DNA of 64,000 bases from Panagrolaimus kolymaensis (lineage: Eukaryota; Nematoda; Chromadorea; Rhabditida; Panagrolaimidae): the NCBI GenBank assembly GCA_028622995.1, contig JAJQJQ010000045.1, forward strand, positions 248,001 to 312,000, written 5' to 3'. Both the position numbers and the translations under genes were made by a program. Shown here piece after piece: positions 3,901 to 57,321 of this stretch (position 1 is its first letter; each line of letters starts with the position of its first letter). The notes under the pieces are model-generated. The model was not told the origin of the DNA. It ran no database searches and worked only from the letters and a program-made list of their open reading frames with translations.

Positions 3901-4815
3901 ATTTTTTCCTCCTTCGTTTTAATGTTTGAATGGTCGAGTGGTAAAAGGCGCATGCGCCATGATACCATCAACCATAGCGGTTCGATTCCGCGTTAGGCCA
4001 ATGATTTACAATTGTCGACTTATGAAGTCCATGATTTTAACACACAACCTTACCTACATTATATGAGGCAAATCAAAAATTTTTGATTTTTTTAGACTTA
4101 AAATTCTATGTAATTCAATAAAGCAAGAAAAAAACATTTTATTTTTTTTGTTTAAAATAAAAACAAACTTTGTGACTGGCAGGAAAATCAATAGTTCCAC
4201 TTTGTAATTTTCTTGTAAGCAAAATTCCATTCATTGCATATAAAATTGATAGTAATAACGAAGAACAGGCAGCAAGTAAAATTTTTGAGGTGAATGTCGT
4301 AAACTAAAATTTATTATTTATTTTTTCAAACAACTAATTCTTTTATATATTTTTGAAACTTACTTTAAAATAAAAAAAGAATAATAATAAAGCAAAAATA
4401 AAACACACTATAGCCATCGTGAGACAAAGCGAAATATCAACTTTATGCCAGCTTTTAGCTATTGCATTTAATTTATAATCTGCATATGGTGTACCACCTT
4501 TAGTTTTACCCGGAGATCGAAACATTAAATATATGCCTGAAAAAAAGAATTTTTTCTTTGGAACTCAAAAGACTAAAAAGCTTTATGGATTTTTAATTAT
4601 TCAGGTCAGTTTTTTTTAACTTTTAAAATATTAATAACATTTTTTTGTTTTAAATTTGTCTCAATAATGTGGACATAAAACTGACCATAAATAGGAACTA
4701 AAAGTCCAGCAGCCACAATCATCCAATAAGGAAAACCAATGGCATAAAGTAATAAAAAAGTTACAATAAATTGGGCGAATTTGAGAATCAGCCTGAATAT
4801 TTCTTCCAACTTCAT
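998..4815 (-). CDS. four-TM membrane protein with a very long disordered Ser/Gln-rich tail
   Basis: Eight-exon model on the minus strand: 4815-4686, 4536-4364, 4303-4169, 3746-3576, 3506-2834, 2560-1856, 1536-1225, 1161-998. All junctions keep frame and sum to 820 codons plus stop. Residues 1-145 hold four hydrophobic segments (FIVTFLLLYAIGFPYWMIVA region, YGIYLMF junction, LTMAIVCFIFALLLFFFY, ILLAACSSLLLSIL). The remaining roughly 670 residues are low-complexity Ser, Gln, Asn, Pro and Lys with no visible fold, so a cytoplasmic scaffold-like tail is an inference. The exon 1 donor (TATG|GTCAGT) was chosen because it alone gives the right phase to reach the MFRSPGKT exon. The intron 3747-4168 carries a tRNA-like repeat. 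I do not recognise the family; the layout recalls claudin-like or TARP-like tetraspans only in shape. Confidence 0.72.
3921..4070 (+). repeat. tRNA-like dispersed repeat, second family, copy E
   Basis: It contains a box-A-like TGGTCGAGTGG followed by AAAAGGCGC (3931-3951) and a box-B-like GGTTCGATTCC (3979-3989), the two internal Pol III promoter blocks of a Ser/Leu-type tRNA. It does not close as a tRNA: the seven bases before the D-arm do not pair with the bases after the T-arm. It starts TTTTAATGTTTG and ends ATGAGGCA, as does the copy at 41472-41620. It sits in an intron of the minus-strand gene, antisense to it. Read as a tRNA-derived SINE-like element, not a functional tRNA. Confidence 0.62.
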
Positions 4816-22762: not shown

Positions 22763-25700
22763 ATGGGAAGAAGACTTATTTTTGATGATGATAAACAAAA
22801 GTAAGTTTTTTGCTTTGAGTAATATCTTTTGTGTTGAAAAGAAAATTTTTGCTTTAAATTTGAATATTGTTTTTTGACTTTTTAATTACTTTTTTGTGCT
22901 CTTTTTTTTAAAAACTTTTTTGTATAAAAATAAACAAAAAATTTAACCCCTACCCCATGGAATGACTACTGATTTTTGGCCGAAATCAGTGCACAATAAT
23001 GCATATTTTTTGCGCGCATTCGGGAGAGTTTTTTTCGGCGGTCGTGTTCACGAAAATCTTTATTTATTTCCGTGACGATAATGATCCGGGTCGCAGTGTG
23101 GACTCGATCATGGCCTCGCTTAAGCTATAGTGTTGCGCCGTCAACCACTATACTATTTAAGCGGGCCAGCAGACTTGCGACAGAGCGACTCACAGTCATT
23201 CGTTCATTCATTCACAAAAAAGCTGCAGTACCACCAAAAACTCGCGCACATATTTTGATTTTGATTTTTTGATGGAAAAAAAGAGAGTTTGAATTCGATG
23301 TGCATTTTTTAGTTGGTCAACACTTTTTTTATTTTTTAGCTTGAAAGTATTTTTCTAACCAAATTTTTTTTCTTTAACAAATTTCGTCTTAAATTTATTG
23401 GATCCTATATTCCTTTTTTCTATTAGTATAAAAATTAAGTATAAAATTAATTTTCTAAGAAATAGAAATAATTTTAAATTTAATTGATTGATTTACATTC
23501 GACGGCGCCACTTTCTATCTATTATATCAACTCCAATATTTTGTTGCTTTCATTCATTTATATTTTCTTTGCTTTTAAAAAAAACTCTGATTAAACATTC
23601 TTTTTGTTTAGTTAACTTTTGATTTAAAAACAAACCAAATTTAATAAGCAATAATTTTTTTGTCATTCACAAATCTAAGAAAATTCCAATTTCATAATTT
23701 TTTCCCCCGCATATAAAATCCAAAAAATGATTCATAACCATACAGCCACGAACATGTCAAACCCAAAAAAATTAAGTAACCAACTGTTTTTTATACATAT
23801 ATACGTGCACTTTTTTTGCTCTCATTTCAACGATATTCCACCCCCTCTTTACACTTCGTTCAAAACCTATGGAGACTAACAAAAAAAAACAAAAAAAAGC
23901 ATTTATTTTTGCGTCTAGAAAAAGTTTAGTTTTTTTTTGTCCAATCAAATGAAACAAACAGTTGCTTTTTAAAAAAATATGTGAATATTAACGTCATCGG
24001 TTAAATGAAAAAAGTGTGAAAGTGAAGGTGTGTGGGAGAAAGAAAAGAATTTTAGCCTTTGGTTTATTTATTTTTTTATTTTCGAGCCTGCTTAATAAAA
24101 ATATATATGAGGAAGTTATTATTGTTATTTTTTGTTTGTTTTTTATAAACAAAAAGTTTTAGTTATTTTTTAAAACTAAAAACTGTTTTAAAAAATAATA
24201 AGCAATTATGAATTTTTTGTTTTACATTGAAAAGAAACAATGGATTTATTTATTTTTTTGGAGTAACAGAAAAAAGTGATTAATTATATTCCCAAAGTCA
24301 AGATTGAAAAGAAAAAAAAACGACTAAAGGCATTTTTTTCTTCTCAGTTGATAGGAACAACAACAAAAAAAACTAAACATTTGTTTTTAGACAATTTTGA
24401 TAAACGTAAAATTTTGCCTTGGTGATTAGAAACAAAAATGCAAGGATTGGTAAAAAAAAGCGTTGAAAATTCTAGAAAGTAAAACTTTAAAAAATAAGAA
24501 TTTACTGCATTTGTCGTATAGGGACGATGGTAATAGGGACAGATGCTGTAATTGTCTCGTTTGACATAAATGAGGAATACATAAGTTTTCTTATATGTAT
24601 TACAACAATGAGAAACACAATAACCAAATAAGTTGATTACCGATTACTACTTTGAGTAAGGTAATAAACTACAGCAACGAGCTTACACACACGCGAAGAT
24701 ATAAAAAGAAGTTTATTATTAAAACTACACAAAACCAGGAACAAACAAATAAATAAATAGGAATTTAGCAGCAGAACACAATAGTTGAGAATGATGACCA
24801 ACAATGAAATGAAGATGAATAAAATAAGCAAGCATTAGATTGGCATAGAGACATACGAAGCCAATGATTGATGATGGAAGAAGAATGAAGAAAGAGAGAA
24901 TAATGTGGATTGAGGTCATCCATATGACACGCCGCCTCCCTCTCTTAATCGACGTCCTCGTCGATGGATACATAACGATCAGCATTATTGAGTTTACCAT
25001 ATATTTTGAACTTTGATGGTTGATCACTTGAAGGACGAGTAGCATCTTTGAGATATTCTTTAGAAATCATAACATCAGTTTTTACCATACGAGCATCTTT
25101 CTTAACAAGTTTCTTTGAAGAGCAAATTTGTTTACCTTTTTTAACATCAATAACTTTCATTTCACGTTCTTTAATAACATTACAACATCCTTTCCCATGT
25201 TCTTGATCGTTCAGTTTGGTTGACATTTCTTTATTATTATCAGCAGTAGAGTTTATCATACCATTTTGAAATTTGAGAACATTGCGACGAGTTTGTTTTC
25301 TACCAGAACCATGAGTTTTTGAGTATTGATAGTGTTTATCAGGAGTTTCCATACCAGCATTTTCTTTTTCTTTCCTTGATGAATCAGCACGAGCAGTAGT
25401 ATCCACGCGACCTTTTTCTTTAGCTTTAAGTTTGCTATGGTTTACTTTGAAACTCACAAACAAAACTTTCTTTTTTACAGTTGGCAAATGGTCAACGTTT
25501 TTATTTAAACTTTTATGGCTTTGCGCGATAGTTGGTTTATCGGTACCTTCGGGCAAACTATCAATTTTTCTTCTAATCCTTTCGTCCGTTTCTTTCTTAC
25601 ACGAACTTTGATTAGTAGCTGCTTGTTCAACAGATGATGTACGCCTCTGTTCACGGTAATAGCCAATATGGTTATTAATAACCGGTAATGTGTCTGCATT

Positions 25701-41016: not shown

Positions 41017-41471
41017 TTTTAGTGAAAATAAAAACAAAAATTTGAATAAATATTAGAGTCAAAACAAAATCCAAAAACGTTTACTTTTTTAAACAAAAAA
41101 TAAAGAAACTTGTTTGTTGTTATTTCTGTATGATGAAAATTTTTTTATGTACCAAAACATCGGTGATTAAAATGGCTAAAAGCGAGCTGATTATATTTTT
41201 TTCTTATCAAAAAATTTCCTTGATTATTGTTTTTCATGCGGTCGTTGTTGTTGTACTTTTTTTTGAACAAATAAAACCCATAAACATGTAAATAACTTGT
41301 GTCTGTTGCTTTATGTTAAAACTCAAGTAAAATTCTAATCCATAAAAAAGCTATTTCTTTGGCAAACAATAATCTTTATCCTTTCAAAAAACCTTTCTTT
41401 TTTTGCACTTTTCTTCTTCGTTTTCAAAAAATACTCAAACAAATCAAGTCTCTTTCACAGCAAGTTCCTTT

Positions 41472-41620
41472 AATGTTTTGATGGTCGAGTGGTGAAAGGC
41501 GCAACAGCCTCTGCACTTTCCTATCAAAATTTGGGTTCGAATCCTCCTCGCCTGTGATTAAAATAAGTAACATTTCTTGACCAACCATGATTTAGTGCGT
41601 TCAGGACTTATGAGGCATCT
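41472..41620 (+). repeat. tRNA-like dispersed repeat, second family, copy F
   Basis: Box-A-like TGGTCGAGTGG then GAAAGGCGC (41482-41502), box-B-like GGTTCGAATCC (41534-41544). Begins TTTAATGTTTTG and ends TTATGAGGCA, matching the copy at 3921-4070. TTTTGAT before the box A can pair with ATCAAAA at 41522-41528, giving a stem around the box-A loop. It does not form a proper acceptor stem or T-arm, so it is not a functional tRNA. Confidence 0.65.
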
Positions 41621-41871
41621 TTTTTTCATTTTTTTTTGTTTTTTTTTTACTGAAATGAAAAATGTTAAAGAAATAATCTGAAAATGAAATCTAAAAACGA
41701 ACACGGGCAGCTGTTTTATTTCAAGTTATACAACTATGGTTGTACGATAAAAATCAGTTAAAAGGCAGCAGTTGATTAATCAAAAAAATTTATATGTCTA
41801 GGACCACCCAAAGTTTACTACAATCATATAAAAAATGCGTATTAAAATTGTAAAATAGAGGAACTACTTAC

Positions 41872-46053: not shown

Positions 46054-48561
46054 ATGATAATATTATTCCTTTCACTGATTTTGTTTTCTTCCATTTTGCA
46101 AATTTGTAAGTTTTTTCTAAAGCACTTTTTTTTTACAAAAAATAACTATTATTTCAATAAATTTTTTTCTAGCATTTGCAACTCCATTCAACCCTTCAAA
46201 TCCTCAATTTAAAGAAGACGCCTCCACGTCTTTTTTAGACAATCAACAACAGCATTTAATAAAAGTAAGTACAGACACTTGCCCTTTTTAAATTTTTATT
46301 TAATTTAATTTGTGTTTTGAACATCAAAAATTTTTTTCAGCCATTTCAACCTTCAAAAAATAATAATAATGTTGGATCATTTTTTGTTGGAAATTATTTT
46401 AATTCACAACCAAAAAATTTAAAAATTGCAACTAAAAAAGTTGATGGAAGTATTAATACTTCTCAATCTCAAAATTCGGCTACGGTAATCAAAAACTCTT
46501 CTAAAAATAATGAGGGTCAAGAAACAAAACCCTCCCTCGGGGTGATTGGTTTCCAACCGCAACAACAAACTTTTAATGAACCAAAACCAGTGGATTTTGG
46601 ATTTTTTCCTGTTTTTCCATGGCCTAAAAATCTTAAAGTTGGCCATTTATTTCCTCAACGAGCCAATAATGAAATGTGGCCTCCTCCACGATCGGATCCA
46701 AGATTGAGCAGATTTCCAGCTGCGCCAGTGCCAAAATTACCAAACACTCTAAATGTTGGATTTGCCATGCAACCTTTGAAACCTGTGAGAAGAGTTCATG
46801 ATGGAGAAATATTTCCAAAACCACCACCTTCAACAACAACGAGAAGGCCAATTATCAGGACCTCCACCACAAGAAAACCGCCAACAACGACTACTTTTAG
46901 ACCAGGTTTGATTTTTTTAAGTTTATTGATAAAAATTTTGTGTTTATTTATTTATTTTCTTAAGTATAAGGAAAAAATTATTTAAAAAAGTTAAAACAAA
47001 AACAATAATTATTAAGTTGAAAATTTTTTTCATTGCCTTTATCTTTATCGCGATAAAACCTTTTTTGTAAGAGTACCAAAAATTTTATGTTATTTTTTTC
47101 CATCCCTCACTGCAGTGATTTGTGCCTTCCTTTCAATGGCAGCATATGAGTCGCATAGTTACAGCTCACTCAACCTGTCAGAATAGTCGAGTGGATTAGG
47201 GCGCGAACCATTCGATCTGGCAGGCAGTGCCATTGGTATAAGGAATAGGTATAAAGCTTTCCTGAATGCGTACAAAAACATGTATTGTGCAATGATTTCG
47301 GCCAAAATCAATAGTCATTCAAAGGGCAAAAGTTTTTTTTTTTTTTATTCAAAAAATAAATATGAACAAAAAACATTTTGTTTACTGATTTGCAGATTTT
47401 TTAAGTATAAATTTAAAAAAAAAAACCTTGTGTTTTACTCCGCTAACCTTATTTTATCATAAGAAATGCTTTTTTTTGCCGGAGTGGCTAAAAAAGTGCC
47501 CACTTTTTTATTTCACTTTTTTCTCATAGCATTTTTTTAATTCACATTTCTTTCATTAAAATTAAAGCTTTATATAAAAGCCGCGCAGTTGCAGCTTACT
47601 TTGCCTGCCAGAATAGTCGAGTGGATAAAGGCGCATACTATTTCTGGCAGGACCGACCGACGAGACCAAAATGACTTTCCCGAATGCGCACAAAAAAATA
47701 AGCTTTATTTGTGCACTGATTTCGGCCAAAATCAGTAGTCATTCAAGGGGTAGATGTCTCACTTTTTTCTATTAAATTAAAATATCAAAAAATAATTTAA
47801 TCATCAGAAATTTTTGTTTAGATTATTTAATAAAAAAAATTTCCAAAAAAATAAATTCGAGAATATTTTTTACTCAACGGTTATCAAACTGCCAATCGAA
47901 TATTTTAAAATTTTAATTTCAGAAACCACAACTTTTGATGATAGTCACAATCATGTATGGAATTTTGCTCCAGTTACTTCCTCTCCATTGGAATTTGATT
48001 TTCATGGGTTTGGGCATGAAATCACATCAACTTCACCACCACCACCACCATCAACGACGAAGACAACCACCACCAGAAAATCTATTGGTTCCCCTCCAGG
48101 TGTAGCGCCACCAGATTGGATTGGGCGAAATCCTGAAAATGGATTATTGGAAGAACCAAGTTTCAATAGTAATAAAAAATTTATTGCTCGAGATATGCCA
48201 AATCGAAGAAGGATATTTTCTTCCAAATCACAAAATGAAATCAAAAAAATTTCAATATTCAAAAAAGAATTTAATAAAAAACAAAAAAAAGTAAGCTAAA
48301 ACTTTTTAAAAATCTACAAACTTTTTTGTTACATAATTTATGAAATTAAATTTTTATATTACAAAAAAATTTCAGTTCCGTCAATGCCGCCAATTAAGCC
48401 CATCCACCGATTCAATTCTGCATCCAAAAACGGATAAAAGTTGTGATCAAAGTTTGCCGGGATTTCATAATGATGATCGTTGTCGATGTCGATTTATCGT
48501 GGCTACAAGGGATTTTGCTGGTTGCGCAACAAAATTTTATTCACTTTGTTTTAGAATTTAA
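46054..48561 (+). CDS. secreted Pro/Thr-rich protein with a small Cys-rich C-terminal domain
   Basis: Five exons: 46054-46105, 46173-46264, 46341-46905, 47923-48290, 48376-48561; 420 codons. The first exon is almost only a signal peptide (MIILFLSLILFSSILQI). The middle is disordered, rich in Asn, Gln, Pro and Thr, with PPPSTTTRRP and PPPPPSTTKTTTTRK tracts that look like O-glycosylation sites. The last exon adds six or seven Cys in about 60 residues (CRQL, SCDQSL, RCRCRF, GCATK, SLCF), probably a small disulfide domain. Intron 46906-47922 contains two copies of the structured repeat in tandem, both sense to the gene. Extracellular or cuticular by inference. Convergent with the transporter ending at 48801. 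Confidence 0.72.
47160..47327 (+). repeat. structured intronic repeat, copy B
   Basis: Head CTGTCAGAATAGTCGAGTGG (47175-47194) with GGCGC after it; ATCTGGCAG at 47215-47223 can pair back to the head start. The 3' module runs from CTTTCCTGAATGCG (47257) to AGTCATTCAAAGGG (47313-47326). The GATTTCGGCC hairpin is present, but this copy has an A opposite A at the stem base where others pair. Sense to the host gene. Confidence 0.78.
47590..47751 (+). repeat. structured intronic repeat, copy C
   Basis: Head CTGCCAGAATAGTCGAGTGG (47605-47624). CTATTTCTGGCAG (47638-47650) pairs with CTGCCAGAATAG, a 12-pair stem with one bulge. The 3' module runs from CTTTCCCGAATGCGCAC (47675) to AGTCATTCAAGGGG. Its hairpin CTGATTT/AAATCAG closes with a C-G pair where copy D has T-A. 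It lies 260 bases after copy B in the same intron and orientation. Confidence 0.8.
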
Positions 48562-55243: not shown

Positions 55244-57321
55244 TCAGCCCCATAGTTGCTTTAAATCTTTAAAATAATTATCATGTGAAATCGTTGTAGG
55301 CAAATTTCTTCCAAGTGCACTTTCAACAATTAAATTATTTGATGTTGTATGAGATTCAACTTGAATCGTATTCTGAAGTTTTAAATTTGCACGAATTCGA
55401 ACAAATATTGCCAACGCAAAAGCGACATTATAGGTCTGAAAAGAAAAAACGTTTGTTTACATCACTGCTTTTTTTAAATCGTCAGCTGCTTCTAAAACTT
55501 ACAATCAAAAATAAACAAGTTGGAGCAGGTTGATTTGTGAACCATGCGAAAACTATAGTCATAACTATTCCAATTGGAGCTATGGTGGAAAAAAGTAAAA
55601 TTGATGGCCATAAAAAACTTAAAACTTTTATATTTTCAACAATCTAAAAATATCTGCTTTTTAGTATTCCTTTTTTCCGCCAAAATTAATTTTCAAAGTC
55701 ATAAAAAGTTTTGGTGGAATTTTTTTTTCCAAAAAAATAATTTTCCGGGAGAAATAAAAATAAATTTACAAACCTGTGATCGCCGTTTCAAAGAAACTTT
55801 ATATGCAAGCAGCCGATACATGGTTCGATTCCTTCGATGTAAAACATGCGACATAATTACCGTACAACCATGAAGGAAAAGATTTAAATATAAAAGAATG
55901 TAATAAAAATATTGAAAATCGGTTATAAAAATCCCTGCAAAAAAAAAATTGATTTAAATTTATTTTTTCGAAATTTTTTCTTTAATTTAAGTATTTTTTA
56001 ATTTCGTAAAAAATGGAAAAAATAAAGAAAAAACTCTTCTCCCCTTTGAATGACTATTGATTTTGGCCGAAATCAATGCACAATACATGTTTTTTGTGCG
56101 CATTCAGGAAAGGCTTTATTTTCTCATAGGCGACGAATTCACTGCACTGCAGAATAGAATGGATGCGCCCCTGTCCACTCGACTATTCCTGCAGGCCAAG
56201 CGAGCAGCAATGCAGCCGTGGACATGTTCAAGGAAAGAGAAAAGAACTATGAATCATAATTATCTGTGAAGGAAAATAAAAGAGAGAGAAATGAAAATGG
56301 GAGCTTTTTTTTAAATTTTCTATGTAAATTAGTTGAAAAAAAATATATTTAAAAGCTTTAAAAATTTTTTTTTCGAATTAATACTTTTTTATTTTAAATT
56401 TCGCGCTAAGAAAAAAAAACTGAATTTATTTCGTAATTTTTAAACAAAAAATACGCTTAGTTAATTTTTGTCAGAAAATTTTAAAAACTCGAAGCACTTA
56501 AAAAATATCAACTTACAAACTATGCTCGGAGCAGTATAAATAAAAGTATAAAGATATAATATAATCGATAAAACAATAAACATAGTTAATCCAGAAGTAA
56601 ATTTGCTATATTTTTCAAGAAATATTGTTGAAATAATTCGTTCAATTACAATTAAAATTAAACTTGCTCGAACTTGTTGAGCTGTAATTGCAACGGTGAA
56701 GCGGATAGCTTTAAAAAAGAAAGTTTTTTCATCTTGAAATATTAAAAAATGTATTGTAAAATATATTGATCCCGCGGCGGTTAAAACTGCAAAAAGAAAT
56801 GGAGCTGTTAGAAGGTAGAATCTGAAAAGGTAGGATTCCATTAAAAGAGGGTTACAAAAATTTAATGAAGTAAAAAACCCAAACAAATTATTGTATCGAA
56901 GTGAAACCTCAAAAGTTGATATTAAAAAACTTTCACTGCTAGACAGTCTTTTATTATAATTTTTAATTAGATACCTTTTTTTTACAGGGTCGTTAGTAAT
57001 ATGAAAATTTTTATTTCCTAAATCTTAGAAATCGCTCATTTTTTTGGATGAAAGCACAAATGGTAAGATTTGCCTAAAAAGGAAAAAAAGTGATTCTAAC
57101 TCCCTTAATAAATTCTCATTACGAAAAATAAGTTACAGAAATAAATTTTCGTGGGGGAAAAATTAAGAAAAAAAAGTTTAAGAAAAAACTTACTTTAAAC
57201 TTTTTGGAAATTGATTCAACCTTTCTTTTTGAATTTTCATATAATAAATAAATACTACCATCGCCGCAGTTCCAGCTAACATATTTAAAATATATATTAT
57301 TTTTATTAAAGATTCATACAT
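55244..57321 (-). CDS. serpentine chemoreceptor, Sre/Sra superfamily type
   Basis: Five exons: 57321-57194, 56938-56517, 55934-55774, 55643-55503, 55435-55244; 347 codons. The exon 2 acceptor (TCTAG|CAGTGAAAG) was chosen because earlier acceptors run into a stop. Seven hydrophobic segments fit TM1-TM7. Family-like motifs are the ERIISTIFLEKYSK at the end of TM3 (ER...YE-like) and SLKRRSQIVENIKVL before TM6, matching the LSxRYQxxENIxxL motif of Sre/Sra-type receptors. The C-terminal tail is polar. Intron 55935-56516 contains structured repeat copy D, sense to the gene. Likely chemosensory by family. Confidence 0.8.
56041..56215 (-). repeat. structured intronic repeat, copy D
   Basis: Minus orientation. 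Head CCTGCAGGAATAGTCGAGTG (about 56193-56174), then GGGGCGC; CTATTCTGCAG (56156-56146) pairs with CTGCAGGAATAG. In copy C the equivalent stem uses CTGCCAG with CTGGCAG, so both sides changed together. The 3' module runs from CTTTCCTGAATGCGCAC to AGTCATTCAAAGGGG (ending 56041). Its hairpin closes TTGATTT/AAATCAA with T-A where copies A and C have C-G. Confidence 0.8.

Follow-up and report, generated by a model that had tools for sequence, protein, structure and literature searches.

Elements and host introns in the window

The window analysed here is a stretch of 64,000 nt (bases 248001-312000 of contig C44) from the Panagrolaimus kolymaensis assembly (265,843,910 bases in 807 contigs; ~28% GC), which is described as triploid in its report (PMC10374039). 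Four related elements, A to D, lie in the window, and three of them are carried in sense by introns of protein-coding hosts (Table 1), one of 1017 bp (B and C) and one of 582 bp (D). A Pfam search of the exon-bearing frames named neither host. Elsewhere in the window, Pfam found an Srh-type receptor, DUF1679/EcKL proteins, an MFS transporter, a transthyretin-like protein and LRR repeats, a content that fits a nematode. The Srh-type receptor shares 73% identity with its best named relative, a Panagrolaimus davidi protein, with two closer relatives at 83% and 74%.

An intact copy is built, from 5' to 3', of ~40 nt of conserved upstream sequence, a head hairpin carrying a tRNA-like box A, a spacer, a 3' module with the form of a three-way junction and a T-run. 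The ~40 nt located 5' of each head (e.g. 47580-47602) are conserved and partly common to A-D. The spacer between head and 3' module varies, and in A it holds an additional predicted hairpin.

Table 1 Positions of the elements and of their host introns in the window
Feature	Position	Strand	Evidence
Copy A, 3' module (three-way junction)	22951..23028	-	R1 E 3.5e-20; alignment A2
Copy A, head hairpin, box A 23145-23155	23111..23168	-	z -4.0, 0/200 shuffles as stable
Copy A, T6 run, proposed Pol III terminator	22936..22941	-	T-run scan
Copy B, head hairpin, box A 47184-47194	47173..47225	+	z -4.4, 0/200 shuffles
Copy B, 3' module, closing pair A.A	47257..47329	+	R1 E 2.4e-20
Copy B, T14 run, proposed terminator	47333..47346	+	T-run scan
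Copy C, head hairpin, box A 47614-47624	47603..47652	+	z -4.9, 0/200 shuffles
Copy C, 3' module	47675..47753	+	R1 E 3.2e-21
Copy C, T6 run, proposed terminator	47763..47768	+	T-run scan
Copy D, head hairpin, box A 56175-56185	56144..56196	-	z -1.5, 14/200 shuffles as stable
Copy D, 3' module	56039..56112	-	R1 E 1.7e-22
Copy D, T6 run, proposed terminator	56028..56033	-	T-run scan
Intron holding B and C in sense, protein-coding host	46906..47922	+	GT..AG, flanking ORFs, by eye
Intron holding D in sense, protein-coding host	55935..56516	-	GT..AG, flanking ORFs, by eye

All 16 copies of the family were used to build a covariance model (R1) for the 3' module. Run on the 64,000-nt window, R1 found A, B, C and D, each with E ≤ 3.5e-20, recovering all four copies where a sequence-only reading of this DNA had placed them. 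The next matches, with E values from 0.023 upwards, were partial ones to the same hairpins on the opposite strand, followed by one over the full length of the model with E 0.51. With up to three mismatches, the 18-base hairpin of the module matched the window 8 times, versus 0.12 times expected by chance; three copies match on both strands because the hairpin is nearly palindromic, and one match (16068) falls outside the family.

No match to Rfam 15 above the gathering threshold was obtained for the whole window, and ARAGORN predicted no tRNA in it. At a loose threshold, a search with three loci gave 12 Rfam matches (best E 0.46), and the only one to reach the edge of an element was to STnc410, an sRNA family of bacteria (E 1.2). 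Copy C, the sole copy searched alone, gave three matches, the best being a Dictyostelium C/D family (E 4.2). None of the titles and abstracts listed by literature searches naming Panagrolaimus concerned such an RNA. The statement in the sequence-only reading that no named nematode ncRNA has this layout holds at the Rfam 15 thresholds, but the head is less unusual than it seemed, as box A leaders ahead of ncRNAs that end at T-runs are known from the UM2 loci of Caenorhabditis elegans (PMC2527325).

Distribution and conservation of the family

BLASTN with copy B as the query found 16 copies genome-wide, and the 3' module of B gave the identical total, a count that rests on BLASTN and one hairpin pattern and may miss members with a differing hairpin. 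The copies belong to five paralogous loci, A, B, C and D inside the window and E at C44:144009, and are labelled by locus letter and contig number (B44 is locus B on contig C44). Loci A-D have one copy each on contigs C44, C62 and C1, which we infer to be the three haplotypes of one region. Locus E has copies on C44, C62, C83 and C494, one per haplotype and one extra; the C494 and C44 copies are almost the same in sequence, and the comparison of the surroundings on C83 and C494 spans ~3 kb only. E lies on the same contig as A-D, ~127 kb from A on C44 and ~118 kb on C62, and all five loci fall inside ~160 kb of a single contig on both. A genome-wide search with the pattern TGATTTN{0,2}GGCCN{0,4}AAATCA recovered the same 16 copies and one further site on C26, with one match for its reversed control, and the family is therefore a local cluster. 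The elements had been taken for dispersed repeats, a description that applies within the window only, as the genome holds just 16 copies at five loci, gathered within ~160 kb on C44 and C62. A-E are thus the five loci of one family of putative small, folded ncRNAs, clustered in a triploid nematode genome.

Comparison of the haplotypes in 60-base windows showed that D is 92-100% identical within the element versus 53-77% on both sides. For A, identity is 93-100% in the first 240 bases, against 80-85% in the sequence upstream and 81-90% at the junction of its end with the flank. Copy C is 89-100% identical across haplotypes, a range that also holds between C44 and C1, where the upstream sequence is 45-59% and the downstream sequence 84-92% identical. 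The haplotypes thus differ less within A, C and D than in the adjoining noncoding DNA; as nearby coding exons reach the same identity, these three elements are best described as constrained like an exon and no more than that. B is 94-100% identical between C44 and C62, but these two haplotypes hardly differ over several hundred bases around it. E62 and E83 are 88-97% alike within the element and about equally so beside it, and locus E therefore gives no conservation support.

Three of the 16 copies (B1, E44 and E494) have no intact head, and E83 has an altered box A without the word AGTGG. The head of B on C1 is replaced, next to ATCGATAATCGA-like repeats. In E44 and E494, an insert of ~190 bases with inverted ends and GGTTATCACC at both sides splits the head. 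This MITE-like insertion, at ~1300-1510 of L061 in the case of E on C44 and also seen on C494, is present in two of the four E copies.

Copies B44 and B62 show 8 differences in 787 bp (window 47093-47879), four of which fall in the 3' module of B, and the DNA on either side of this block differs by more than 10%. We read the block as a probable recent homogenisation of the two haplotypes that was followed by local change. Gene conversion from D to B44 was considered as well, but only two of the four module differences match D by eye, which is too little to claim it.

Folding of the head hairpins and the 3' module

All three stems proposed for the 3' module by the sequence-only reading, GAATG/CATTC, GCACAA/TTGTGC and TGATTT/AAATCA, are seen in the aligned copies, as short stems of 6, 6 and 8 pairs. 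The 20 named pairs of alignment A2 (16 copies, 13 distinct rows) are formed in 95.0% of the cells among the 13 distinct rows. Nine of the 20 never vary and are therefore uninformative, and two, 17-42 and 48-68, changed on both sides, each occurring as C-G, U-A and U-G. The pair closing the last hairpin, from which covariation had been argued, is indeed C-G in two copies, A and C, and T-A in copy D, but it is A and A in B (47160-47327), so that copy B breaks the very pair cited as evidence. In addition to A.A at 48-68 in B44, pairs are broken at 12-73 in copy C on C1, at 47-69 in E and at 8-77 and 9-76 in E494, and pairs 18-41 and 19-40 fray in the alignment.

When the columns of A2 were shuffled, the observed count of pairs changed on both sides was reached in 235 of 500 cases and the pairing percentage in 37 of 500. 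Evolution without pairing was simulated on a tree with all 16 rows, for which the observed pairing is 95.9%. With whole-alignment branch lengths, this value was reached in 0/400 simulations and the both-side count in 109/400. With branch lengths from the stem columns, which make the fairer simulation, the expected pairing was 86.8 +- 5.0%; the observed value was reached in 11/500 runs and the both-side changes in 98/500. Covariation in the 3' module is therefore not significant on its own (235/500 column shuffles, 98/500 tree simulations), and the earlier covariation argument was right in direction but weaker than claimed.

Single modules from five copies fold modestly better than shuffled sequences (z -0.72, -2.23, -1.75, -1.31 and -1.16), and the full-length z is -2.67 for C, -1.58 for D, -2.12 for A and -1.79 for B. 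Part of the module is lost in the best fold of full-length B44 and of full-length copy C on C1, and in the best fold of the module of E62 the outer stem is mostly missing, although the centroid retains more of it. The head stems are present as first described. The head of E62 has a z of -4.4 and, as for A, B and C (Table 1), none of 200 shuffles was as stable, while D reaches only -1.5. The heads of A, B, C and E62 thus differ in sequence yet fold well, in four of the five paralogs.

Among the three haplotypes of A, 10 of 265 columns are substituted, and two of these are partners in one pair of the head, which switches from A-U to C-G on C62. This compensatory change is the cleanest single sign of structure. 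A further substitution, at column 254 of A, turns U-G into U-A in a predicted terminal stem. The three haplotypes constitute a built-in evolutionary test, which has so far shown this one compensatory change. In 15 of the 16 copies, E494 being excluded, shuffled tails served as the comparison for a terminal stem that would close the 3' module. This stem is clear in three E copies (1/500 shuffled tails each), weak in A1 and in copy C on C44 and C62 (38-48/500), and not significant in A44 and A62 (117-120/500), copy C on C1 (225), B (367-422) and D (340-346). Selection on RNA structure, as first proposed from paired substitutions, is supported by module pairing beyond the tree null (11/500), by head folding in four of five paralogs and by the compensatory change in A, but not by covariation (98/500).

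Putative transcription signals and the probable nature of the RNA

A strict box A (TRGYNNAGTGG) stands ahead of the hairpin in 11 of the 16 copies, namely every copy of A, C and D as well as two of the three B copies, and E62 has a near match. The strict motif occurs at 8 sites in the window, four in A-D, two in the candidate loci F and G described below and two elsewhere. Its variant GTCGAGTGGNNNNNGGCGC is found 19 times genome-wide, 14 times in this region (B, C, D, F and G) and five times elsewhere. The motif TGGCCGAGTGG..GGCG, presumably of the tRNA-Leu type, gave 36 matches, all on other contigs and none on C44, C62 or C1. Box B, searched as strict GGTTCRANNCC or relaxed RTTCRANNC, was found in 0/4 of A-D, with a near match by eye in A.

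A run of T6-T14 follows the module without an earlier T5 in 12/12 copies examined, the body being counted from ~11 nt upstream of box A through the module end; B1, E44 and E494, which lost the head, and E83, for its altered box A, were left out of the 16. The longest T run within the body is 3 in B44, B62, C, D and E62 and 4 in A. In this window, a 160-nt stretch lacks a T4 with a probability of 0.064, and a T6 occurs within 35 nt with a probability of 0.20, values that overstate the surprise because the GC content of the elements exceeds that of the window.

In C. elegans, the UM2 promoter consists of tRNA-like boxes A and B, both of them needed and box B lying ~33 bp downstream, within a short-lived leader; transcription starts 9-13 bp before box A and ends at T-runs, and short ncRNA loci are often intronic (PMC2527325). 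A-E resemble this arrangement in having a tRNA-like box A near the start, an ncRNA downstream and a T-run at the end, and B, C and D are likewise intronic. When the UM2 start rule is applied to A-E, the predicted start lies 10-13 nt before box A and coincides in 5/5 paralogs with the base at which pairing of the head stem begins. This fit depends on head ends chosen from the folds; longer folds of D reach further upstream. A-D differ from UM2 in having no strict box B, and A-E in a leader that forms a strong hairpin in most paralogs and in a downstream RNA without snoRNA boxes (0/16). By analogy, A-E would work like UM2 transcription units, but they are not filed as UM2 snoRNA genes because they have no recognisable box B or snoRNA boxes.

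We favour, with moderate confidence, the reading that A-E are genes of one small ncRNA family, independently transcribed by Pol III behind a UM2-like leader. The tRNA-like box A of the head would serve as the binding site of TFIIIC. Pol III would initiate 10-13 nt before this box, on the base that opens the head stem, and read 160-226 nt without a T5 run before stopping at a run of at least 6 T. The head would fold as a hairpin and probably be trimmed off, as are the C. elegans UM2 leaders, leaving the 3' module as a stable RNA of roughly 80-95 nt with a three-way junction and a nearly invariant hairpin (TGATTT, a loop with CGGCC, and AAATCA). Its U tail could be bound by La protein, and a protein or partner RNA would most likely recognise the invariant hairpin within an RNP, through which the RNA may exert its function. 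Several observations count against this reading, namely the lack of a strict or relaxed box B in A-D, the three copies without an intact head, the altered box A of E83, the equal similarity of E62 and E83 within and beside the element, the broken pair in B44, the incomplete best folds of B44, copy C on C1 and the E62 module, a terminal stem that is clear in E alone, and the conserved ~40 nt upstream, for which a purely internal promoter gives no account. If expressed, these genes would add a structured RNA family without an Rfam match to a triploid nematode revived from permafrost.

A bolder version, in which A-E represent a novel type of Pol III RNA in nematodes that is neither snoRNA, sbRNA nor miRNA and has a conserved three-way-junction core with locus-specific heads kept in the mature RNA, is put forward as a speculative and rather doubtful proposal. 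The co-located members could in that case dimerise or present different heads on a shared RNP core. The loop of the nearly invariant hairpin holds the palindrome GGCC. The nematode sbRNAs/Y RNAs are described as a single bulged stem whose loop carries the motif UUAUC (PMC4450293) and as using UM3 instead of a tRNA-like box A (PMC2527325). They share with A-E a short structured RNA, a U tail and a presumed Pol III origin, but A-E have a tRNA-like box A and a three-way junction, and TTATC, corresponding to the sbRNA loop motif, occurs in 0/16 of the 3' modules.

A snoRNA of the H/ACA or C/D type, diverged so strongly that its boxes have become unrecognisable behind the UM2-like leader, is an unlikely identity for the mature RNA. 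C. elegans UM2 loci mostly encode snoRNAs (PMC2527325), loci with the same box A in this genome look like C/D (L070-L072) and H/ACA (L073, L074) genes, and C-like boxes with 1 and 2 mismatches occur in the tails of F and G. However, a C box with at most one mismatch in the first 45 nt and a CTGA in the last 30 nt were each found in 0/16 copies, a search that was positive for 3/3 of the control loci L070-L072, and ACA, which H/ACA snoRNAs carry three nt from their 3' end, was likewise found within the last 12 nt in 0/16 copies, whereas L074 has it there. In addition, the C/D family matched best by copy C is from Dictyostelium and reaches only E 4.2. To our knowledge, a three-way junction is no usual snoRNA fold, which also counts against this identity.

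The sense location of B, C and D in introns would also suit a Pol II-made structure that is processed from the host intron or acts in cis on splicing. This is improbable, as the layout of box A and T-run argues against it and hosts were seen only for these three loci; the 3,228 bases around E62 contain no stop-to-stop frame longer than 89 codons.

The elements could also be relics of an old SINE or another mobile repeat, as tRNA-derived SINEs likewise join a tRNA-like head to an unrelated tail and the several copies here share their box A head and a common 3' tail. This origin is disfavoured and very improbable, since the 16 copies are confined to five loci with no scattered copies found genome-wide, the heads vary from locus to locus, and A, C and D are conserved between haplotypes beyond their flanks.

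Pol III-made precursors of Dicer-dependent small RNAs are a remote prospect too: the C. elegans mir-1829 genes (PMC12157501) form a similar small intronic family with box A/B before the hairpin and a T5 just after the structure, but the 3' module of A-E is a three-way junction of 6, 6 and 8 pairs instead of a single miRNA-like hairpin, and its most conserved hairpin seems too short for a Dicer product.

Box A leaders of the kind that would drive A-E are also found ahead of other candidate RNAs in this genome. The five GTCGAGTGGNNNNNGGCGC sites outside the region correspond to L070-L072, three haplotype-like copies, and to L073 and L074. L070-L072 are near-identical; behind a tRNA-like leader they carry TTGC-ATGATGA ... 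CTGA-GCAA, with exact C and D boxes, and then a T-run, and they look like genes of a Pol III-made box C/D snoRNA. In L074, a tRNA-like leader precedes an H/ACA-like RNA that ends in ACA just before the T-run, and in L073 it precedes an H/ACA-like RNA matching SNORA15 at E 0.0025, below threshold. As L070-L074 combine the same box A leader with a snoRNA-like RNA, a UM2-like system seems to be present in the genome. The variant tRNA-like box A marks candidate ncRNA genes of several kinds here, and a box A scan could therefore expose hidden Pol III RNAs in such nematodes.

Two further candidates in the window, F and G, have one copy per haplotype each. They were considered as additional members of A-E and rejected, being missed by R1 and single-copy per haplotype. 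Candidate F (41466-41635, +) has box A at 41482 and a strict box B at 41534, and its tail carries the C-box-like GTGATTA and TATGAGGC near the T-run. F may encode a C/D snoRNA of non-canonical type preceded by a tRNA-like leader; shuffled sequences fold as well as F is predicted to (z -0.05). Candidate G (3917-4095, +; box A 3931, box B 3979) has the same layout, with C-like boxes ATGATTT and a fold z of -2.23, and the fourth match in a genome search with F is the head of G.
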